From NCBI RefSeq assembly GCF_037975245.1, contig NC_092568.1, forward strand, positions 15,328,501 through 15,392,500: 64,000 nt of DNA. The letters run 5' to 3'. Source of the stretch: Apostichopus japonicus (lineage: Eukaryota; Echinodermata; Holothuroidea; Aspidochirotida; Stichopodidae). The position numbers and the translations under genes were made by a program. This document shows positions 19,288-52,823 of the stretch, piece after piece (within the stretch, counting starts at the first letter, position 1; every line of letters starts with the position of its first letter). A model generated the notes under the pieces. It searched no databases and had not been told where the DNA came from. It saw only the letters and a program-made list of their open reading frames with translations.

Positions 19288-19291
19288 TTAA

Positions 19292-19455
19292 AGGTCAAGT
19301 GACACGTAACAGATTTCCTTCAAACTTACACAAATTGAAAAGCTACATATCAAAACCATATATTCCAAATTTGGAGTTCCACAATTGTTTCTTTGCTGTT
19401 TTAATTAAGTTAATAACCAAGCTAATTCCGTAAGATAATGACGTCATGGGGGGAA
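19292..19455. repeat. Left extended TIR with CRE-like palindrome
   Basis: The tip matches the right tip over about 18 bp. The inner part holds CGTAAGATAATGACGTCATG followed by a G run. The palindrome ATGACGTCAT is at 19438-19447 and may act as a CRE/ATF site for the plus-strand THAP gene. Confidence 0.55.
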
Positions 19456-19552
19456 CCGCCAGTGTTACCAAAACTAAGTATGCCTAATATGCTAACCGAG
19501 ATCAAAGCCGTAAACAATACGTCACGAACAGTAAACAAAGTATCAGATGAGA

Positions 19553-22279
19553 ATGGGTGCACAACAGTACAAGAAAGTTTCGTGTTCGTCAAACACTGTA
19601 TACAGCGATAGCTTAGTACCAGTGCACTCAGCCAGCCTAGTTGTCTATAAGTAAAGATTGGCTTGGACCTTCGAGCGAATCTTATGTGTGCATTGCGCCC
19701 TTCACCAGTTAAAGTTTCGATTCCTATCGCCTATCCGCGCAACTTGGACTTGGAACACCAACAGCTCGCCGTCTACAAGACAATGCCGTTCCTTCTCTAT
19801 TTGGAGAAAGTATCTTCAAATCTCGAGGAGATATAGAAACAAGTAGACCGGTAGTTGCGAAGCTGGATCGGAAAAGAGTAAGTGTATTTTCTGGCCTAGG
19901 CCTACTACAACAAGGACTAACTTGGTATTATTACTAACTTACAGTAGGCTGATTAATTTCGTTCAGTTAGTTAGGCCCTAAATTAGGTACGGCGACGATA
20001 AAGTTAGGCTTAGACTAGGGCTATAGTAACTTTTATCTGTGGTACATCATGAAAAATCCAGAATAACAAGCATCAGATGTTTACATGTCATTTTGCCCAA
20101 TATTATAACGTGCTCCCACCTATCTATATACTCAGAGTCATAGCTCATATGTTTCACAGTAGATGACATCCTTATATTTTGCCATTTTTGTTGGTAGGGC
20201 TGCAATTTTTGTTACAAGAGAAAACGCTTGTGACAGGTACTGTCAATTATATCAAACTGCTTTCTTATCTGAACTTTCATAACTTCCTTGTTATTTTCTT
20301 CCCCAATTTTCAATACTTAGATTAATCTAGAAGCTGTTCCCCAACCAACTGCAGTGAAAATAAAGGCAGGATTCTGCAGAATGTACATCTCCATCTAAAG
20401 GTAGCATGATCTTATAGACATGTGCTTGATATTACCGAAAAACAGTTGGGAAATGGGGGAGGGGAGGGTGGTGACAGGCATTAAAGATTTAAGTGTCAGT
20501 TTTGAATGGGATACAAGGAATCTCCACCAGTAAAACATCGAGGCATGTATATGGGGGGCAAGCTACCAGACAAAAGGGAGGCAGCAGTATTACGGCCGAA
20601 AGGTCCCCATAAATAGGCTTTAATAGAATGATGGATGGGGAGGGGGGGTGGGGGAGAAAATGTGGTAGAGAAGTGTAAGCTAGGGTAATACAAGGAAGAA
20701 TGGAAAACTTTCATACATCTATAGAGTATTCTATAGCAGAAGTGAGTACAGGGGCAAAAATTTTAGAAACAGTACTCGTTGAAAGCAAAATAGCAATTAA
20801 AACTGCACATCGGGCAGGCAGACTAGGGGATAATATACATTGTATTTTATCCATCATATCCGCCTGCCTGACGAGAGTGGTTGAGGAGGCTATATCTGAT
20901 GGCTTCACAGGAAAATATAAAGGCTACATCTATAGTTACTGAGAGAAGGGAGATTACATTGTAGTTATACTATATGAAACCAAGCTGAAGTCATTTGCAA
21001 TGCTCATGGTGTGAGTGGCCCATATTTTTGCAGCCACATAAAGTAGGAGGATATGCTCTCCTTCAGAAAAGATAAGTGAAACATCTAGGCAGCTGACCCC
21101 TGTCCAAGAGCAGCCTACTGTATGTGTGTGGTATAATAAGCGTTTATTCTAATTTTCAGTGAATGTAACACATGTAGAAGTCCAGTGTTCACTGGTCCCC
21201 CTACCACCATTGAAGTTGCTGACTGGACCAACAGAGACAAGAACACCATCAAAGCAACCAGGGCCATCTCACAGTGGCGATGATGGTCCGTCTGCTGCTG
21301 TGGAATCCACATCGGGATACACCGAAAAACCGCCAGGTAGTCCGGATTACACTCCATCAGTTAACTCATCTGAACATGACAAAGATGACGCTTCAACGTA
21401 ATTTTCAAGATTGATAGTAGATTAGTCTGGAAAATCAATTGGTGCCAAAACTTTCTGGAAAGAGGATCATTATTCATTTTGACACCAACACTGTGGGGCA
21501 GTCTGGAATGTGTGGTGGAGGCCATCAGTCTTTACTTCAATTAGCATATACATACTGTATCTGGTAGAGTTGTCACAGCTGTATGTGAACAAGAAATAAA
21601 GGCACAAACAAGTAGTTGGATTTAACAGAGTATATTATATCTTCACTTGGCTGGATATCTGCTACTGAATACAAATGGTTAAAGTTGCATCTTATACACT
21701 CTTTTACCATGGATTACAAGGGGATGGGACAGGATGTTACTCTGTCCACATGTTTACTTTACTACATAAACAGTGGTTAAGCTACTGAGACATGACCACA
21801 CATCCTGCTGAAGATTACATAATCCATAATATTAGGTGCACAAACAGGTGTAGGGTTTTTGTTGTAATCAGTAAAAAAAATATTGAAATTGTTCAGGCAC
21901 AAGTTGTCAGGTAAAACCTGACCCATGTATCCACACCAATTGAGGTGTACTCAGCTGTCGCCTTAGTTGGGCATCCAAAGACTTGACTGACAACTGTGCC
22001 ATGCCTATTGACCGAAATGGAGTGATTGGAATGCCTCTATCTAAATGGTATGTTTTTATGAACTATTATTATATTATTCTTCATATCTTTACTATTCTAC
22101 AGATTATGTATGGGAACTTCTTGACTGCTTGCAACAACTTCTGTAGAAGTGGAAGTCTGGGAGAGGAGTGTCCTGTTCCTGTCAGAAAAGAGCCCCCACC
22201 ACTTGCAAGCTCCTATGTTCATCCGAACAATGAGGATGCCATAAAACAACACCGAAGCAGATTTCAAAAGCTTTGCTGA
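19553..22279 (+). pseudogene. THAP-domain transposase gene remnant
   Basis: A start-like ATG at 19553 begins MGAQQYKKVSC. At 19652-19877 one frame reads as the second half of a THAP domain: SSESYVCIAPF, then a stop, then SFDSYRLSAQLGL and RRLQDNAVPSLF, the last being the AVPxxF signature. The zinc-binding His expected after the second Cys reads Pro (GCG-CCC), and a TAA interrupts soon after. A donor gtaagt follows at 19878. An exon-like segment at 21160-21401 (ttttcag before) encodes a Pro/Ser-rich acidic linker including GSPDYTPSVN. The last exon-like segment, 22103-22279, ends PPPLASSYVHPNNEDAIKQH plus a few residues and TGA. Between them no DDE core is readable. Role: the THAP domain would bind the TIRs. 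Clearly broken. Confidence 0.6.
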
Positions 22280-23159
22280 AGTACTGTAGTTGATGGCCTC
22301 CCAATTTCTAATTTTGTATCATTGTAGTGGGGAGCAATCGACTCTGTGAATCGTCTGTTCACATGATGTTTCGGCACAGCTGCAGAGCAGTGTTAATTAA
22401 CTGGTCGCTACCAGCCTTTAGGGAAGTTGCTTAAGTTTTACATTAAAGTTTTACTTACATCTGGTTTCCATTGTAACTAACTAAATGATAACATTATATT
22501 TAAAAAAAAGTTCCAATGACAAGTATTCCTCTCTAGAGAGCTTAGACTTCATAAATATAAATTTCATGCTGACTTACTATTTGTATGCAACTTTGGTGTT
22601 TCAAACATGTTGCCAATTTTTTGTTTTTCTCAAAAAGAATTGACAGAAATTTGCTGTTTGTTCCCCGCATGGGATAAAATGTGATTTTTTTTTATCCCAT
22701 TTATGATCAAGTATCCTTGATATTCCATGGATTAATGAACAATTTCAGATTGATTCTCATTACACTTTTATTAAAATGAAAGCCTAAGCTCTCCAGATCC
22801 CATTGACATAGTGGTTTAGGGTACTTTATTCAAACTATTCTTCTATTTTAACCTAGTATATTTGAGATTTCAATCATCCAGATTTTGTTGGCAGGCTACT
22901 AGAAGTGACAGCTTTGCTTACAAGAGAGAATACATACAAAAAATTAACTTGAGTTTTTATTATTTATTACTGTTATGTACTTCCCAAACTTGAAAATGTA
23001 AAATTTCATCCAAGATTGTTGTTAATACCATGAACCAGAAAAATGTAAGCTGGAATTCCAAATGTTCACCATTCAGCCACAAAACAGACAGGACTGAACC
23101 CTGTTTCTATAAAACTTTGCAGAAATGATACTATGACTTGGCATAAACAGTCCACATTC

Positions 23160-24914
23160 TCACAGTCTTGATAATTTAAATCCTTCATACTGTTCAGATG
23201 GTAAAGCTTCTCTAATCCTCCTTACTGCATAGGATGGGAGAACAACACAAATCTCCTTCCCTAAAAACTAATAGCTCATCCGTGCAAGTTGTCTGTATGC
23301 TGTGTGTCTGTATTTCCTGTAAAATAATCATATGAAAACCAGCTATAAAAGATGAAGACACACAAAAGTTTGGTAGCCATCTGGGGACGTCAATTTTAAA
23401 ATAAATATCTATATGATTTCCAGAATTTGCTTGGCCCCTAAATCTGCCTCCCCTAAAGTAAGCCTAGCTATGCCATTTATACAAACTGATCATTGTATCT
23501 CGGGGACTAAAATTTGTAAATGGATCGTGCACAAGCATGGTGGACATTTTTTGTGTGGCATTTGGTTCCATGGCTCAGTGTTAATGACTACTATGTCAGT
23601 CAGCATGATAAGGGTTAACCTCAAGGGCATTACACCAGTTTTTGGACAAAATGACCTAATCAGAAGCAGGTTTTGAATATGGGGCACAAATGTTCTTGAT
23701 CAAACCTATATCTTAATGTTATTCTTTTCACAACGAAACAAAACTTAACTAAGAATACACCCTCTGTATTGTTACATCTTTCAACAGCAGGTCAGAGCAA
23801 TGAATAAAGGTATACAACAAAAATAATGTATTCTATACTTACTCTTGGATCCTGTTTTCCTGTGCACGTCCACCATACTGTTGACGGTACATGTAGTAGG
23901 CTGTCTGAAGAAACAATGGGTTCAGGCACATAGCTTCAAAACCTGGGTGTAAGGTGATGCATGCAGCACCTTCTTCATCCATCACAGTCCAAACTTATCT
24001 ATTTCGCTGCAGCATCTACACTCCCTTGCTGTAGGCATCACAGCACATTGGCCACAATGACACCTGTAAACAATACAAAAGAGTTCAAATAATAAAGAGC
24101 CAATTCAATGACTTCATACCGACCTCAATTATTGGGGCATACTGTACTAACATGTCAAAATAGAAAAGGGGCACCTCTGAAGGGCAATCTACCGTTGAAG
24201 CTCCTTACAAGTACCATCACTAGTAAGGAGGGGGTAGCCTCTTCTTAGAAGTCTTGCCTCTGTTGGGACAATGCTGCAAAGGAAAATAAAACAGGCCGAT
24301 GTTGCCTCGTTTCCAACTCTTTCCCACTCCTGAATCCATTCCCTAGATTGAGAAAATCTGGTTATGAAATTAGCTCAAGCGGAAATGACAAAAAGCTGGT
24401 GTGTGGTGCCACCTCCTCCCTCCCCCCACCCTTTCCCTGATTTGTGGTAACTTCACTAATTTGCCACTACAACTGCTAGGAAATTAATAATAGGCCACCT
24501 CTGAATTTGTTGTGCACTCTTCCAATTGCCTCCTTCAATCTGCTAACCAAATGAAATATGTCTATGTGACATGTTCCTGGGGCATGTGCTGTCACAACTT
24601 TTAAGGAAAATAATAACTTCCTTAACTTAACTCGACCGCACTTTCATGTTAATTTTGCTACCCCATCAACAAATTGGCTAGCTAAGAGTATGAGCAAAGT
24701 TAGGAAACATTTATCGGTTCTAGGCCTACCTAGTGACACAACTATCCTATATACAGTATATTACGCTAGGCGTAACGTTACCGTTGTATTCCGTCAAGAC
24801 GATCAATTTCGACATCGCTGTCCGGTCCCGCTTCCTCTTCGCTGGTCTCCGGTTCGAACATGTAGGGAAAAACTTCCTATCTAAATACTGTGTGTCAATG
24901 CCACCGGCAGCCAT
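23160..24914 (-). pseudogene. P2X7-like cysteine-domain gene (three exons, broken)
   Basis: Exon 1 ends at 24782 (donor gtaacg). One frame from an ATG at 24861 encodes MFEPETSEEEAGPDSDVE, the acidic leader typical of this family; a second possible start, ATG 24914, is in another frame. Exon 2 is 24063-23843 and encodes CHCGQCAVMPTARECRCC, then a one-base deletion, then CITLHPGFEAMCLN and TAYYMYRQQ. Exon 3 is 23316-23160 and encodes YRHTAYRQLARMSY, a TAG where Trp is expected, then LGKEICVVLPSYAVRRIRE and a final TGA. Exon phases agree across both introns. The Cys pattern and the order HPGF, CLN, AYRQ, RRIR match the cytoplasmic C-terminal domain of P2X7 receptors, which also occurs as free proteins in invertebrates. 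There are no channel segments. It lies antisense near the right end of the Kolobok-like element. Function unknown; damage is one frameshift and one nonsense codon. Confidence 0.75.
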
Positions 24915-25309
24915 TTCGCGATATGTATAAGCTATGCTGTGCTGTGTATATATGCGTACTACAGTGCGTGTATAGAAACTGTATGTGGTAGCAATAAGTA
25001 ATAACTTTCGACTTGGTAAACAAATGACGTCATTTGTTTTCGGCTTTCCCTGAACGAGTCAATCTAGCCGATTTTTGCGGAGTTTATGTTGCTTGATAGG
25101 AAGAAAATGCAAGGAATTTATGAAAAAAGAAGTCAATGGATGTTTTGTTCGATGTCTTATGTATCAATTTGTGATTTTTCATCTTAATCCAAATCTTAAC
25201 TTTCTTGTAACAGACTGCTGAAAAAGGTAATATTTTCGAGAAGTTTGAGATTTCTACATACCCAATGCACTGCGCAGAACATATACAGTTTGCACTCTTC
25301 TGCGCTCCC

Positions 25310-25466
25310 CCCCCCCGTGACGTCACTGAATCTATTACGTAAAAGTACTTTTTACCGATTTCTACCCCTTTGGAGACGGAAAAAAATCGCGGTGTTGGGT
25401 TTTTGTTAATGTAAGAATTGTTAAGTTTAATATTATGTAAAGTCAAGTCTACGTGTCGCTTGACCT
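25310..25466. repeat. Right extended TIR with CRE-like palindrome
   Basis: The palindrome GTGACGTCAC at 25317-25326 sits 140 bp from the right tip, mirroring 19438 on the left. On the minus strand it is followed by a run of G, as on the left. Another ATGACGTCAT at 25024 lies about 110 bp upstream of the first exon of the minus-strand gene. Confidence 0.55.
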
Positions 25467-25540
25467 TTAAGTATGTTCAATTCAAACTGTCGGTCCTGGA
25501 GCACTGAAGTGCACCACATCCAAGTGTCCCGGGACGCGTC

Positions 25541-26219
25541 TATTTATCACTCACATGGGGAAAAAATGTTGAATTGTTCACTTCATTCCAACTGAGCATT
25601 TGGAATGGAGTGAACAATTAAACATTTTGCTGAAAAATGTTGAATTGACCAGATACGATAAGTTGTCAATTAAAGATCTTGCAGATATATGTCCAATTGA
25701 GGAGATATGATAAGTTGTCATTTAAACATTTTTCAGAAAATTGTTCAATTGCTAAGTTAAAGCAACTGAGCAATCCAATATATATCTGATATTTGATAAT
25801 ATTTTATCTTGTTAATTATCAACTTATGGGGCAAAGTTTTTCTTATGTTGATGGCGCTTTGATTCTTCCGTAGATTAGCATTGAGTGTCTTACTTGAAGC
25901 TTGCGAACAGGGTCAACCCACCCAATAGCAAAATTAGTACATAAATAAACCGATTGAAGCTGGGGAATTTTGTACAGTAGTTCTTTCAGCCATTTTTTTT
26001 AGAGTATATTCAAAATCATACGCAGTTTTGTATGGTGGAGTATAGGGATCGCGAGATACAATTTCTCAAGTGGCAAGGACAACGTGGTATATATGACTGA
26101 TTAAAGGTCAATTTTGACGGAAATTTATCAATTTTTAGGTCATTCACAATCACAGGAATATATGAATAGGCCTAGGTAAATAAGAGTGCGACATTCGGAA
26201 AATCCGACTGTCGCACTCA
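25541..26219 (+). repeat. Dispersed repeat, copy A (inverted partner at 52071)
   Basis: Bases from TATTTATCACTCACATG to a CGACTGTCGCACTC motif match 52823-52071 read in reverse complement. Shared pieces include TGGGGCAAAGTTTTTCTTATG, an imperfect TGTATGGTGGAGTATA and ATTAAAGGTCAATTTTGAC. No coding potential is seen. One end carries a small hairpin (GAGTGCGACA with TGTCGCACTC). Confidence 0.8.
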
Positions 26220-27180: not shown

Positions 27181-30100
27181 TCATAGTAATTTTTTCAGAT
27201 GTCGCCTGAACGAAGCCACGGAAGTATAAGATTTCAAGTTAATCGGAAGATTGTTCCACAAAGAAATAGAACGATAACGGAGGCTTTGCATGCTCTTTGA
27301 ATTACGACAAAAAGAAGCACGCAAATGACCAGCTTGTCTAGTATTATAATTGTGAATAGAGTGACCAATCGTATAAAAGGTAGCAAAAGAAATTGGAAGC
27401 AGATTGCTCATAGCATGATAAGTAAACGTCAGAACATTTAAAGAAATGAGATCAGTGAACTTGAGCACGTTTAAGGAGGAGAATAAATGACTGGTATTAT
27501 CACGTGGAGCTGAAGACGTCATGTGCCTCACAGCCCGTTTTTGGAGAATGACAAGCTTATTAAGGTTAGTATTGAAGGTACCAGACCAAACTGAAGAGCA
27601 GTACGATAGATGAGGAAATATAATACTATAGTAAATAGATCTCAGAATTTTCCTTGGAAAAATATATTTTAACTTAGATAAAATACCTACACCTCTAGAA
27701 ACTTGTTTACAAACATGATTGATATGGACTTTCCAAGAGAGCTGAGAGTCAATATACACACCAAGAAATTTAATATTATCGACTCTTTTAAGGCAAATAC
27801 CATTCATATATAAATCAGCATTTAATGTTCTAGAGGAGTTTCCAAATACCACATAATTTGTTTTATCAATATTCAAAGACAGTTTGTTAGCAGAAAACCA
27901 ATCATAAAACGCATTTAATTCATTACATATGGTTACTTTAAGAGTTTCTACATTGCTGTCAGAGAAAAAATATTAGTGTCATCAGCAAAAAGGACAATCG
28001 AGCAATTTTTAGAGACGTTGCAAATATCATTTACGTAAATTGTAAAAAGAAGTGGACCTTATATAGACCCTTGAGGAACTCCGCACTTAACTGAACGATT
28101 ATCAGAATTGATTCCAGAAAAAGAAACGTACTGTTGCCTGTTAAACAAATAACTTGAAATGAGAGAAAGAGCTAGACCTCTAATACCGTAATGTGATAAT
28201 TTCCCCAGAAGAATTCCATGATCGATGGTATCGAATGCTTTGGAAAGGTCTAAAAAAACACCAATACAATTATCACCCGAATCAAGAGCACTATGAATTT
28301 TATCCACTGCATTGACCAGAGCAAGTTCTGTAGAGTGGCCAGGGCGAAAACCAAATTGATTTTCATTGAGAATATGAAACTTATCAAAGAAAGCATTGAG
28401 ACGGTTAAAAATAAACCTTTCCAAGATTTTCGATATACAAGGTAGTATAGAAATGGGACGATAATTACTAAATAAATGAACGTCACCCTTTTTAAATATC
28501 GGTATGACTTTGGCAATTTTAAGAATACCAGGAAAAATACCCGAGGTAAATGAGAGGTTGAAAATATAAGTCAGTGGTTTTACAATATAAGGTATTATCA
28601 ATTTAATAATGTTCGGGCGGAAATTTTCGAAACCAGCCGATTTCTTAGTAGCAAAAATTGAATTTGAGACATTAAAAGCTTCACTTTCAGTCACAGGAAA
28701 GAGAAAAATAGTGGAGGGATTGGAATCCCCTAGGTAACTACTGAAATGAACATTAGAATAAATGGAACTGGCTAAGGAAGGACCAAGGTCAACAAAATAA
28801 TTATTAAAAGCATTTGCTATTTTATTAACATCAGTGATTTCATGACCATCCTTAGAATGGAAAACATCGGGAAAATGGTTGGTTTTTCTAGTCTGTAGAG
28901 TGCCATTGATAATATTCCATATTTCTTTCATGTTGTTTTTATTTTCATTAAAAGGATGAAAATAATAATTCCTTTTTGCAATACGGAGAACGTGGTTAAG
29001 CTTATTCAGGAAGCGTGCATAATTGTATTTATTATCTGCGGTAGGCAATTTTATATATGTTTAATAAAGCATATTTTTTGTACGAATAGAATGCAAGATA
29101 CCAGAAGTGATCCAAGGGGAAGGTTTCTTCCTCGTCTTCTTACCCTTAATAAGTTTCATAGGGAAATTTTTATTATAAATTTCACTAAGTGTATTGTGAA
29201 AATTATTGAAAGCATTATTAACATTATCATCATTGAAAACTTCATGCCAGTCCAAACCAGATACTTCCGAAATAAAATTATCAATATTGATATTTGAAAA
29301 ATCTTGAGCATAAAAATCCGTACGATCATGCTTAGTAGGTAAAAAAGAAATATTTAAATGAATCGGAAAATGATCAGTAATGTCAGTGATAAGAACTCCT
29401 GAATAGGAGATCATGACATTATTGTCACCCAAATTGCCGTTAGTCAAGATATTGTCAATAAGTGACGAGGAAGAACTAGAAACCCGGGTAGGTTTGGTGA
29501 TTGTGGGTATGAAACTACAAGAAACTAAAATATTCAAAAAATCCGACGAGTTTGGCCTATTGAAGTCAATATTGAAGTCACCCAACAAATAACAAGGTTT
29601 CTTCTCCTTAGTGATACCATCCAGTGTTTGGTAAATGTAATCATTAAACGAAGTAATATTTCCACTAGGGGGACGGTAGATTATGCCAACGATTATATCT
29701 CCTTTTATGAAGGGAACTCTTATTTCGACAAAAAGGCATTCAGCATGATCATTAAATACTGATATATCATCACGTTGACTGAATGTGTATTTTTAATCAA
29801 TAAATAATCAAATCCCTCCACCCTTCTTGACAGAGCGATGACTCTCAACAAGTGAATAATTATCTAATTTAATGAGTGGAGACAAGTCATCTGTGAACCA
29901 AGTCTTCGTGAAACCTATAATTGTAAAATCGTGTTTAATAGTTGAAAGAAAGTCATTAATCGCACTGAAATTCTTATTGAGACTACGCCTATTTACATGA
30001 AAAATATTGAAATTACTAGTAGGCATCATATTAAGATCATCAGTATTGTAGTACTTACACATATCCGAACGTATATCGCCAAAATAATCCATATACCATT

Positions 30101-30386
30101 CATCATTTACTGAAGTGTCATTTGTTAATGAAGCAACTGTATGCGTACTACAATTCCCCAAACCAGAAGCGAGTTCATTGTCCGTGACGTCAATAAAGGG
30201 AAAATTAGATTGAGAACATGTCCTACAAATCCAGTTGTTTATACTACCATCCTTATGTTGAGTAATGCAGGTATTGTGACTTAAAGCGTGACATAACTGA
30301 CAAATAGTAATACCGTAGTATCCGCTGGAAAAATATCCATTACAAAAAAAAACAATTACTAAAGGACATAGAAAACAAAAATACAC
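27181..30386 (-). pseudogene. LINE ORF2: PHD finger, endonuclease, reverse transcriptase
   Basis: From 30386 down: a PHD-like finger (CFLC, ICQLCHALSH, WICRTC), then the AP endonuclease. FNIFHVNRRSLN is its first strand. The usual Glu of the ETW motif reads Lys (FTKTWF, AAG near 29902). VGIIYRPPSGN, LLGDFNIDFNRP and ITDHFPIHLN follow. The reverse transcriptase has YRPISILPCISKILER, QFGFRPGHST, FLDLSKAFDTIDH, VPQGSI and the catalytic FADD at about 27985-27974. The C-terminal part ends ISLWNNLPINLKSY, FRRHLKKLL, TGA. In-frame stops lie at 29808, 29793, 29061 and 28059, and a one-base loss in a T run at 27965-27970 shifts the frame. The lost Glu alone should abolish nicking. No start codon was chosen with confidence. 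Confidence 0.85.
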
Positions 30387-30668
30387 AAACTAACGACTAT
30401 ACAAAAACAAACAGACGAATATGCAAGCCTTACAAGCCTGCAAGGAAAACATTTCAGAGAACGTAACTTATTGTTATATATGCTGCAGAAATGTTACTCG
30501 ACATCATGAGGATACTCCAGTTCATTGTAATCGGAACAGGTGTATATGGCAACGAAAAGAATCCGGCCACGGTAGGACTCCACAGATACTGTTAAAGCGG
30601 TGTAGTCTCTGTTGCATGAAAAGGTGGTAATAGTTTATGCATCAATATCTCTTGTGTTCCTGATCTTT

Positions 30669-31379
30669 TTAACTCCTGTACTTTTTCCTGCGTCTTTTTT
30701 TGTAGATTGCCAAGATTTTACCGTCTGAGGTCCAAGCACTCTCTATCAAGTCGTGGTTTTGGGTGGCCTTGAGTAGTTGCTGGTTATGGTGGGTGAGGTC
30801 TTCTTTGATGACAATGCCCGAACCTTTCAGCTTACGTCTATTCTTGATAAATGACTTACAATCTTTATGGCTCTGGAACTTGACGATGATTGCCCGAATT
30901 CTGTTTTCAATGAGTGTCCCTACTCTGTGTGCTCTGTCAATAGAGCTGGGGGTAATGTCTACACCAAGCTGGTTTTTTGCTAAGTTTATGAGTAGTTCGG
31001 TCGGCTTTTCGTTGGCATTCTCTTTTATACCAAATACTCGTACGCAATTCTTACGAGAATATTGATCAAGGTCATTCATTTTGTCCGAGTTTTTTTCAAT
31101 TTCAGATTTCATATCAGCGAGATATTTTGTGTGGGTTTTGATATCTTTGAAGGCAGTTTCAAGTTGATTTTCTAGTTCAAAGATCTTGGCTTCCTGTCGT
31201 TCTTGTTCCTCAGACAGTTTACTCAATTTACGGTTAATAGCTTTTTCAATGCAGTTCTGAAGTAGGTTTTTGAAATCTCCGTTTTCAGTCAATTCTTTCA
31301 TAATTTCGCTGACCAGTTCATCAGTTCCAACAGGAGTGGATGTCATTTCCTGTAATTTTGTTCTATTTCGTCGAGCCAT
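30669..31379 (-). CDS. LINE ORF1 protein (coiled coil plus RRM-like domain)
   Basis: The ORF is intact. The start MARRNRTKLQ at 31379 is preferred over the upstream in-frame start at 31409 because MARR-type basic starts are common. About residues 50-105 form a heptad coiled coil (LSKLSEEQERQEAKIFELEN and following), which would trimerise the protein. The next region has DQYSRKNCVRVFGIKE and SIDRAHRVGT, the conserved RRM-like core of L1-type ORF1 proteins, followed by RAIIVKFQSH and a basic tail. Role: RNA-binding chaperone that packages LINE RNA. A 280-bp gap separates it from the first zinc-finger codon of ORF2. It is the only LINE ORF here without a break. Confidence 0.8.
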   Translation of the reverse strand: MARRNRTKLQEMTSTPVGTDELVSEIMKELTENGDFKNLLQNCIEKAINRKLSKLSEEQERQEAKIFELENQLETAFKDIKTHTKYLADMKSEIEKNSDKMNDLDQYSRKNCVRVFGIKENANEKPTELLINLAKNQLGVDITPSSIDRAHRVGTLIENRIRAIIVKFQSHKDCKSFIKNRRKLKGSGIVIKEDLTHHNQQLLKATQNHDLIESAWTSDGKILAIYKKRRRKKYRS

Positions 31380-31859
31380 ATTGATGGGCGATATTTCCGC
31401 AAGGCACAAAAATAATGATCAGGTTACCGTACCTCTTTAAGGTTCGCGGAAAGGGTTCTATATACAAATGAAGTATCATAGGCTGGGCCTAAGCAGGATG
31501 TCAGAACGTCATGCTCAACTTATAAGAAGCGATGTCAGAATTCAACTTACTGGAGAGATTTTCATATGAGAATATTATCCACAGGTAAAATTCATGATAT
31601 ATGTTTCCCTGACTGGCGAAAGGTAAAGAGAACTACATGGTTTCCAGGTATTTTTCTTCCCTTTATTTGATGCTTTATTTGATGTACGTGTATTTGATGT
31701 GCACAAGACTGAACATATTATATTATCTGAAAACCGTGCGAAATGGTCATAATAAACCGTTTCAAAGGGTCATAATTTTGAAAATCAAGTCAATGTCTTT
31801 GCTCAAAACTAGAGTCTATCAGTTTAAAGTTTAAAAGCATCTCAAGCTGTCCAATGGTT

Positions 31860-33880: not shown

Positions 33881-34357
33881 AAATCAGCAATAACAGCAAA
33901 CTTGTTTAAAAACGCCTTAAATTGTTGTATATTTCGCGAATTATGACTGATTGCATGTAAGAAATGCCTTAAGAAATAAACTAGGGGATGTTTGGCCACC
34001 TTAGGTGTTTGGTATGCTGACGCGAAACATTTTGGTTTCGATGATAATCGTAACCTTTGTAGTCATGCAGGCGGATGAGTGTGTGTTCGGGTGTATGTAA
34101 ACGTAGGGGGAAGGGGTGCAGGTGAGTGTGACGCCTTGCTTGCACACAATATCTAAGGAAGGGAAGCTTGGACCGATCTCATATTTCGTGTGTAAGAGAA
34201 TCACATTTAGGAGACATAGCCTATTGTTTTGGTGGAGGTCATTTGGAGTCACCAGAGGCCAAATTGTGTAACCTTATTGCGTAATCTACCGTTTTCCCCA
34301 TCGACCAGCCTAGTAAATAACACGTGCGTTACGCCTCATATTTAATAGGAGGCTGTT

Positions 34358-44489: not shown

Positions 44490-45180
44490 TAAATAGCTTC
44501 TAATGATTGTGGGTTTGATAGGAAGTTTATGTACACTTTTAAGCCCAACTTCAACAGCAGTATGATCACTATTTAAAATGTTATCAACAACACACACTTC
44601 AGTAAGTTCTAGGGCGGTAGTAAATACCAAATCAATAACAGTTCCGGCAGAGTGATCATCCAAGGAAGGGCGAGTAATGTAGTGACGAGTTGATCAAAAC
44701 CATAGTCATACATCAAAGCTGCAAGCTCCGCAGAATTCTGACTCGATTCATCAGTCCAATCAATGTTAAAGTCGCCACCCAATACAATCCCGGCATACCT
44801 CGTTGCATCGATTTTGTTCAGGCTTTCATCAAGGCGCATGAAAATATGTTGATCAGCATTAGGAGGCCTATAAACAATACCTATCAACCACTTCCTTTTA
44901 TTAAGAAGAATCTCAATCCATCGCAAATCAACTTCAGTAGATGCAAAACAGGGTTTTTGGATGGGCTCCAAGAATGATGCAATGGCTGCAAGAACACCAC
45001 CACCTCAAGTCCCACGATCTTTCCTGATAATGGTAAAATCTGAGTGAAAGCCGAGTTCACTGGTTTCAAAAGCTTCTGACAGCCAGGTTTCATTGATGCA
45101 AATAAGATAGTAGGAATGGCATGCTAAATGTGCTTGAAGATCATGGGCCTTCAACCGTAAACTACGGGCATTTAGGAAAA
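44490..45180 (-). pseudogene. LINE endonuclease fragment, second family
   Basis: From 45180 down: FLNARSLRLKAHDLQAHL, the catalytic-type motif ICINETWLSEAFE, FTIIRKDRGT, a TGA, then GGGVLAAIASF, WLIGIVYRPPNADQ, LGGDFNIDW, and (after a one-base shift near 44675) HSAGTVIDLVFTT and ILNSDHTAVEVGL. These are the ordered motifs of the LINE AP-like endonuclease, with Glu, Asp/Asn and SDH residues present. The reverse transcriptase is missing: the frame runs into the 18-bp minisatellite. Damage is one nonsense codon and one frameshift. Confidence 0.8.
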
Positions 45181-47491: not shown

Positions 47492-48855
47492 CCCAGGAAA
47501 AAAAAATTCCATACCCCACTTTTACCACGGTAAAACCGGGGTAAAACCGCGGTAAATTTGTTGTACATTACCACGGTGTTTTGGCCCTATGGACCCGGTT
47601 AACCGCAGTAAATTACCACAAATTTACCATGGTTTTACCTCGCTTTTACCACAATATTACCGCGATTTACCATGGTGTAACCATACTCTACCGCTCTTTT
47701 ACTACACTTTTACCACGCTTTTACCCTAAATTTACCACAGTTTTACCGTTCTTTCACCCCAATTGTACCGTATATTTACCACGCTTTTTCCATAGTTTTA
47801 GCTCAATTTATACCATACTTTAACCACGCTTTAACCGTTCTTTTACCCCAAGTTTACCATGGTTTTACCGTAGATTTACCACGCTCTTACTACAATTATA
47901 CCACAGTTTTATCGTTCTTTTACCCCAATTTTACCGTATTTTTACCACTTTTTTTCCTTAGTTTTACCTCAATTTACCATACTTTTACCAGGCTTTTACC
48001 GCAGTTTACCGTTCTCTTACCCCAATTTTACCATGGTTTTACCGTAGATTTACCACGCTTTTACCTTAGTTTACCATGACTGTACACTATTTGTAGGACA
48101 GTTTTACCTCACATTGAGCATGATTTTGTCCTAATATCAATCAGCATGTACACCATAAATTTCTTTGTATTTCACCCATCAGTCTACTGTTTCATAATTT
48201 GGCTATATATACCTTTACCCTTGTTGTAATGGTTGTATGCCTGTAAGTCCACAGTTGCAGCATGCAACAGTTTTTAATTCATCAAATCCATGGAGGTTTC
48301 ACACACAAGAAAGCTTTGTTGAATTTCAATTACCCTAGCTGGTATGATTCCTGACTCTCTTCTTTTGACATAATTGGTAGTCCAGATTGGACTTTTGATC
48401 TCCCATTGTCCTCTTTTACCCTACTTATACCGGGGTAATACCATGGTAAAACTGCGTTAAATTTACCGCAGTAAATGTACCGCACTTTTACCCTACTTTT
48501 ACCGCGGTATAATACCATGGTAAAACTGCGGTAAACTTACCTTAGTAAATGTACCACACTTTTACCCTACTTTTACCGCAGTAATACCATGGTAAAACTG
48601 CGGTAAATTTACCGTAGTAAATGTACCGCACTTTTACCACGGTAATACCATGGTAATACTATGGTAAAACTGCGGTAAATTTACCGCAGTAAATGTACCG
48701 CACTTTTACCATACTTTTACCGCTGTAATACCATGGTAAAACTGCGTTAAATGTACCGCTGTTGATTTTAACACAATTTTACCACACATTTACCCTATTT
48801 ATTACACATTTACCATAGTTTACCGCGGTAAATTTAGGGTACATTTTTTGCTGGG
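47492..48855. mobile_element. 1.36-kb MITE with TTTACCGCGGTAAA arms, TA target duplication
   Basis: The left terminus is CCCAGGAAAAAAAAATTCC and the right terminus, reverse-complemented, is CCCAGCAAAAAATGTACCC. Both are flanked by TA (47490-47491 and 48856-48857). Comparison with the empty site at 34837 confirms the boundaries. The arms consist of many copies of TTTACC, TTTTACCACGGTAA and the palindrome CCGCGGTAA. A core of about 290 bp (48115-48405) is free of the motif. A TA duplication suggests a mariner/Tc1 or ISL2EU-type source. The open frame 47581-47823 is a by-product. Confidence 0.85.
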
Positions 48856-52070: not shown

Positions 52071-52823
52071 TTAGTGTTGCACTCTAATTTTTCGACTGTC
52101 GCACTCTAATTTTCACATATTCTTGTTATTTGTGAGTGACCTAAAATCTTTGGTCAAAATTGACCTTTAATCAGTCATATTTACCACGTTTTCCCTGTCA
52201 TATTGAGAAATTGTATCTCGCGATCCTTATACTCCACCATACAAAACTTTGTATGATTTTGAATACTCTAAAAAAAGGGGCTAGAACTACTGTACAACGT
52301 TCAGCTTCAATTCGGTTAATTTATGTATTAATTTTGCTATTGGGTGGGTAAACCCTGTTCGCTAGCTTCAAGTAAGTTCAGGATATGGCTCTGGTATATA
52401 CAATTGAAACACTCAATGCTAATCTATGGAAGCTTAAAAGTGCCATCAACATAAGAAAAACTTTGCCCCATAAGTTGACATTTTTCAGTAAGTTGTTTAG
52501 TTAACAAGATAACATCTTATAAAATATCAGAAAATGTTGGATTGCTCAGTTGCTTTAACTGAGCAATTGAAATTGAAATTGAAAAATGTTTAATTGACAA
52601 CTTATCATATCTCGACAATTGGAAATTTTGCTGCAAAATGTTCAATTGTTCACTTCATTCCATCTGAGCAATTGAAACATTTTCTGCAAAATGTTTAATT
52701 GACAACTTATCGTATCTCGTCAACTCAACATTTTTCTGCAAAATGTTTAATTGCTCACTTCATTCCAAATTCTCAGTTGGAATGAAGTAAACAATTAAAA
52801 TTGTTTCATGTGAGTGATAAATA
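52071..52823 (-). repeat. Dispersed repeat, copy B (inverted partner of 25541)
   Basis: Reverse complement of copy A with scattered differences. The motif AAAATGTTyAATTG with CACTTCATTCCAA recurs several times at one end (52540-52800), forming its own small internal repeat array. Confidence 0.8.

Follow-up and report, generated by a model that had tools for sequence, protein, structure and literature searches.

A decaying TTAA-flanked element, very probably a Kolobok transposon, with remains of a THAP transposase gene facing a P2X7-like gene

The 64,000-nucleotide stretch of DNA analysed here (contig NC_092568.1; hereafter the window) contains, at positions 19292-25466, an element of 6,175 bp that is flanked by TTAA at both ends and is very probably a non-autonomous, decaying copy of a Kolobok DNA transposon of the Kol0 lineage from a sea cucumber or a closely related animal. 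The element is assigned to Kolobok, with a P2X7-like second gene, because a TTAA target site, ends of the form 5'-AG...CT-3', remains of a THAP transposase gene and a P2X7-like gene of the KolX type occur in one unit. A previous reading of the window from its letters (the sequence-only reading) had proposed that the P2X7-like domain is the second gene of a Kolobok-like transposon, which the same four features support. That inference is right but was already in print: the pairing, suspected then to be undescribed, is stated in PMC9587614 (2022), where Kojima and Bao report that Kol0 families of Kolobok encode two proteins, a transposase and KolX.

Results and discussion

Element boundaries and terminal repeats

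The limits of the element were defined by a motif search and by a scan for inverted pairs of sequences adjoining TTAA, with the following outcome.

19288-19291, no strand assigned: left TTAA target-site duplication (inverted-pair scan)
19292-19308, plus strand: left terminal inverted repeat, AGGTCAAGTGACACGTA (motif search and inverted-pair scan)
25450-25466, minus strand: right terminal inverted repeat, AGGTCAAGCGACACGTA (motif search and inverted-pair scan)
25467-25470, no strand assigned: right TTAA target-site duplication (inverted-pair scan)

The 17-bp inverted ends match at 16 of 17 positions. When TTAAAGGTCAAGYGACACGTA was searched for with up to three mismatches allowed, two occurrences were detected in the window, at 19288-19308 on the plus strand and 25450-25470 on the minus strand, both free of mismatches, and none of 100 shuffled sequences contained two such sites. 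Inverse pairing of TTAA-adjacent 17-mers situated 200-15,000 bp apart gave 51,188 pairs in the window, amongst which the ends of the element formed the sole 16/17 match, the next best reaching 14/17. The absence of two sites from every shuffle and the uniqueness of the 16/17 pair indicate that the match between the ends is not due to chance. The matching ends with TTAA on both sides, and the enclosure of both genes within a single 6.2-kb unit (THAP sequence on the plus strand facing a P2X7-like gene on the minus strand), are accordingly as the sequence-only reading described them. The same scan revealed no second TTAA-flanked pair with at least 14/17 matches inside the element, and exact copies of the ends were not found in viral contigs. 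The next-best pair lies outside the element, at 33917 and 34983, about 1.1 kb apart, and may be a chance match or a short element of TTAA type.

The terminal letters, AGGT...ACCT, conform to the 5'-RR...YY-3' type that distinguishes Kolobok from piggyBac (PMC9587614). A piggyBac identity for the element was considered nonetheless, since piggyBac would also account for TTAA, and a remark in PMC9587614 connects piggyBac with KolX. However, the ends are those of Kolobok, the relative of the transposase gene described below carries a THAP domain, and the KolX-like proteins of piggyBac are described in that source as lacking most of the seven cysteines, whereas the gene in the window keeps CHCGQC and ECRCC. 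A piggyBac identity, which is highly improbable, was rejected because of the ends and the THAP domain. KolobokP, another Kolobok group, likewise has an accessory gene encoded opposite to the transposase, and a table of hosts in PMC9587614 includes A. japonicus. KolobokP, however, possesses a His-Me nuclease and direct repeats of ~450 or 660 bp at its termini (PMC9587614); the longest direct repeat found within the element is 25 nt.

The P2X7-like gene

The exons of the minus-strand gene were located by tblastn with protein relatives.

24784-24914, minus strand: KolX exon 1, MAAGGIDTQY to PYMFEPETSEEEAGPDSDVEIDRLDG (P0005; two frames, 24914-24879 and 24882-24784)
23842-24065, minus strand: KolX exon 2, with CHCGQC, MPT, ECRCC, HPGF and CLN in that order (P0002, P0005 and P0006)
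23163-23315, minus strand: KolX exon 3, KYRHTAYRQL to RRIREALPSEQYEGFKLSRL (P0001, 86% identity)

When the joined exons were used as a protein query, 10 of 24 candidate proteins matched at the threshold of E<=0.001, and eight of these were from Apostichopus japonicus. The Pfam family PF20478 (P2RX7_C) was matched at E<=0.1 by all five relatives scanned, and three of the five cleared the curated cut-off, with E=7.6e-13 at best. When the window's own frames were translated for a six-frame Pfam scan, a minus-strand frame matched this family only weakly and under the cut-off (E=0.013). The three-exon P2X7-like gene of the sequence-only reading is thus confirmed by the alignment of PF20478-bearing relatives to all three exons, and the KolX identification comes through these relatives and exons and not through a direct match to published KolX. 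Further sub-threshold Pfam matches in relatives, to CoV_NSP4_C in P0003 (0.059) and to Peptidase_S39 in P0007 (0.082), were dismissed as chance.

Every exon of the window copy is damaged. Exon 1 is shorter than in the relatives and has a change of frame, exon 2 changes frame near 23994, and exon 3 contains one in-frame stop and no longer encodes a conserved cysteine, that of LPSC, which is kept in all four relatives that reach the position (eight aligned). The relatives have the cysteine clusters CxCGxC and CRCC, to which the LPSC cysteine is added. Several of the eight A. japonicus models of KolX type are also truncated or out of the common frame in alignment. These observations bear upon the idea that KolX in a lineage of sea cucumber type has been adopted by the host and selected independently of the transposon. 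The presence of several KolX-type proteins in the annotation of A. japonicus is in keeping with adoption, as are the proposals in PMC9587614 that nanor was domesticated and that P2X7 arose from KolX, but with three of three exons broken in the window, and truncated or out-of-frame models elsewhere, host adoption is unlikely.

The transposase gene

Three segments on the plus strand were attributed to the transposase gene, the last of them tentatively.

19653-19877, plus strand: transposase exon, degraded second half of the THAP domain to AVPSLF and beyond, with a GTAAGT donor at its end (tblastn with P0011, 81%)
21225-21395, plus strand: transposase exon, linker following the THAP domain (tblastn with P0011, 83% identity)
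22103-22279, plus strand: possible C-terminal end of the transposase, an open reading frame (ORF) after a CAG acceptor, with HRSRF near its end (reading frame)

Of 1,001 candidates in a search with the pieces of the THAP gene, P0011 alone matched at E<=0.001; it is the 320-residue A. japonicus protein BSL78_27577 and contains a THAP domain (PF05485, E=4.2e-16). By tblastn, residues 42-118 of P0011 align to 19653-19880 (81%, E=5e-33) and residues 121-180 to 21225-21395 (83%, E=7e-23). The THAP exon of the window has an in-frame stop, and proline replaces a zinc-binding histidine of P0011. The THAP signatures reported earlier on the plus strand are therefore real, as judged by the 81% identity to P0011, but comprise the second half of the domain only, with a stop and a zinc ligand changed from histidine to proline. 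No Pfam match to THAP was obtained in the window's own frames, the assignment being made through P0011, nor was any transposase matched in six-frame Pfam scans of the window, it being unconfirmed that Pfam holds a model of the Kolobok core; the plus frames yielded no Pfam match of any kind. The ORF at 22103-22279 may resemble the C-termini of Kolobok transposases.

The part of the transposase that follows the linker appears to be missing. Residues 181-320 of P0011 were not detected in the element, the best score being 17.3 bits versus 16.9-25.8 bits for 20 shuffled queries; since P0011 is itself short (320 residues), the evidence that the core is lost extends no further than the part of the transposase represented in P0011, together with the lack of a Pfam transposase match. 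A degraded first THAP exon had been suspected by eye upstream of 19653, but found no support: residues 1-41 of P0011 scored at best 15.8 bits, below all 20 shuffles in a control made with residues 1-60 (best scores 17.3-20.0). Two other Pfam matches, to DUF5525 in the window (E=0.28) and to DnaJ_CXXCXGXG in P0011 (0.12, sub-threshold), were chance-like and were set aside.

The window copy is accordingly dead, with each KolX exon broken and with a THAP exon that has a stop and lacks a zinc ligand. It makes neither protein whole, and any mobility that it retains would depend on transposase from another copy. Neither the breakage of both genes nor the failure to find the transposase stretch beyond the linker featured in the sequence-only reading.

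Probable recurrence of the gene pair in Apostichopus japonicus

The THAP protein P0011 (BSL78_27577) and the KolX-type protein P0007 (BSL78_27578) have consecutive locus tags, and the longest contig in both records has the value 104,933; the two genes are read as neighbours on one contig. On these grounds the pairing of THAP and KolX genes probably recurs in A. japonicus. The eight KolX-type proteins of this species have seven distinct longest-contig values, which fits a dispersed repeat, with the qualification that draft and chromosome assemblies may count some loci twice.

The probable recurrence is also relevant to the possibility that a cellular P2X7-like gene of the host was captured by, or nested in, a THAP transposon in the window copy only. 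In its favour, a single copy was read as DNA, and passages of PMC7016195 present the ballast genes of many animals as short genes with no mention of transposons. Set against this are the consecutive tags and shared contig value of the A. japonicus pair, the lack of an inner TTAA-flanked end pair with at least 14/17 matches, and the publication of KolX as a Kolobok gene (PMC9587614). A single capture event is consequently very difficult to credit.

Classification of the element

The element resembles the Kol0 lineage (Kolobok-1_XT type), as portrayed in PMC9587614, in its TTAA, 5'-AG ends, transposase remains with THAP and second gene of P2X7-ballast type, and differs in that the window copy is degraded and part of its transposase is gone. 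The passages of PMC9587614 on Kol0 do not mention a convergent arrangement of the two genes. THAP is usual in Kolobok transposases (PMC6004289). According to PMC9587614, KolX resembles residues 476-595 of P2X7, the ballast domain, in which seven cysteines surround two zinc ions, and both P2X7 and, in all likelihood, nanor were derived from KolX. The alignments reveal CxCGxC, a second cysteine cluster, ACIT, AYR, LPSC and R-IR-FP...Y.GFK as shared with P2X7 ballast, and PF20478 is present in the relatives. Unlike P2X7, however, the protein of the window element lacks an ion-channel part, being a free protein whose gene lies within a transposon. P2X7 has no counterpart of the HPGF...CLN stretch seen in the KolX-type family, and the LPSC cysteine is lost in the window copy.

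Rump et al. (2020) described the ballast domain from a range of animals, a sea urchin among them, in which it occurs as short genes numbering fewer than 10 per species and without expansion into large families (PMC7016195). As far as those passages go, this speaks against the wording of the sequence-only reading that such genes are "so numerous". The same paper describes an Ixodes protein in which ballast is joined to a domain printed as TAHP, which is taken here as THAP.

Several points weigh against the classification as a Kol0 element with a P2X7-like gene. Placement in Kol0 depends on KolX rather than on phylogeny, because P0011 ends early and the DDD/E core, which in Kolobok has C/DxxH and a zinc finger, was seen in none of the sequences, and a search for longer transposases with P0011 as query returned none at E<=0.001 among 2,604 candidates, P0011 being excluded by its length. 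An element with these ends is known as DNA from the window copy alone, and a THAP neighbour in A. japonicus is known for P0007, the one KolX protein out of eight whose neighbours were considered. Similarity to solved structures is also slight: a profile compared with solved P2X7 chains gave E=0.051, when an unrelated Piwi chain gave 0.063, and P0003 alone gave E=0.32-0.59 with P2X7 chains, the unrelated Hoefavidin (0.44) falling among them. Since these matches to solved chains are weak, the link to P2X7 rests on PF20478 and on published work. The structure of P0001 was predicted poorly by AlphaFold2 (mean predicted local distance difference test score, pLDDT, 43.5).

By analogy with the Kolobok family, the THAP domain of an intact element would bind the ends, and the DDD/E domain would excise the element and insert it at TTAA in a cut and paste manner. 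KolX, expressed from the opposite strand, would be a two-zinc accessory protein, and probably assists the transposition complex or takes part in regulating it. The copy in the window would have inserted at TTAA and subsequently lost part of its transposase, leaving two pseudogenes. The element supports, from a genome of sea cucumber type, the published view of the P2X7 ballast domain as a natural resident of a transposon. A reason is also suggested for several truncated or broken genes annotated as 'P2X purinoreceptor 7 intracellular domain' in such a genome, which may be transposon copies.

Subterminal palindromes

The palindrome TGACGTCA, which we take to be similar to the cAMP response element (CRE), was located near the ends of the element by motif count.

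19439-19446, no strand assigned: subterminal palindrome TGACGTCA
25025-25032, no strand assigned: subterminal palindrome TGACGTCA
25318-25325, no strand assigned: subterminal palindrome TGACGTCA

The window contains five copies versus 0.60 expected, three of the five lying no more than 500 bp from an end of the element (P=4.5e-05 for uniform placement of five sites, with a motif that was picked after looking). The sites may be CRE-like promoter sites for the two genes, or subterminal sites for protein binding. It is conceivable, albeit decidedly doubtful, that KolX is kept in copies lacking transposase parts because KolX or the TGACGTCA sites serve mobilisation or expression in trans; if so, KolX would be a functional partner of the transposon rather than a passenger.

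Other features of the window

A retroelement resembling a long interspersed nuclear element (LINE), with several reading frames, occupies 27181-31418 on the minus strand. Its reverse transcriptase (PF00078, E=1.1e-21) lies at 28059-29060. The ORF at 29061-29792 is endonuclease-like and falls slightly under Pfam cut-offs, and the adjoining ORFs had no Pfam match at E<=0.001. Another endonuclease-like ORF, a partial one at 44609-45004 on the minus strand (PF03372, E=0.00049, below the cut-off), is probably a further retroelement fragment.

Two tandem arrays with a 52-bp period, at 25615-25751 and 52564-52753, appear by eye to be built from one satellite unit in opposite orientations. The former begins about 150 bp beyond the right end of the transposon and adjoins an inverted repeat at 25563-25628 with 32-bp arms. 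Further tandem arrays, at 48413-48759 and 47613-48065, are rich in TTTACC/GGTAAA-like units and have periods of 72 bp and 11 bp, respectively.

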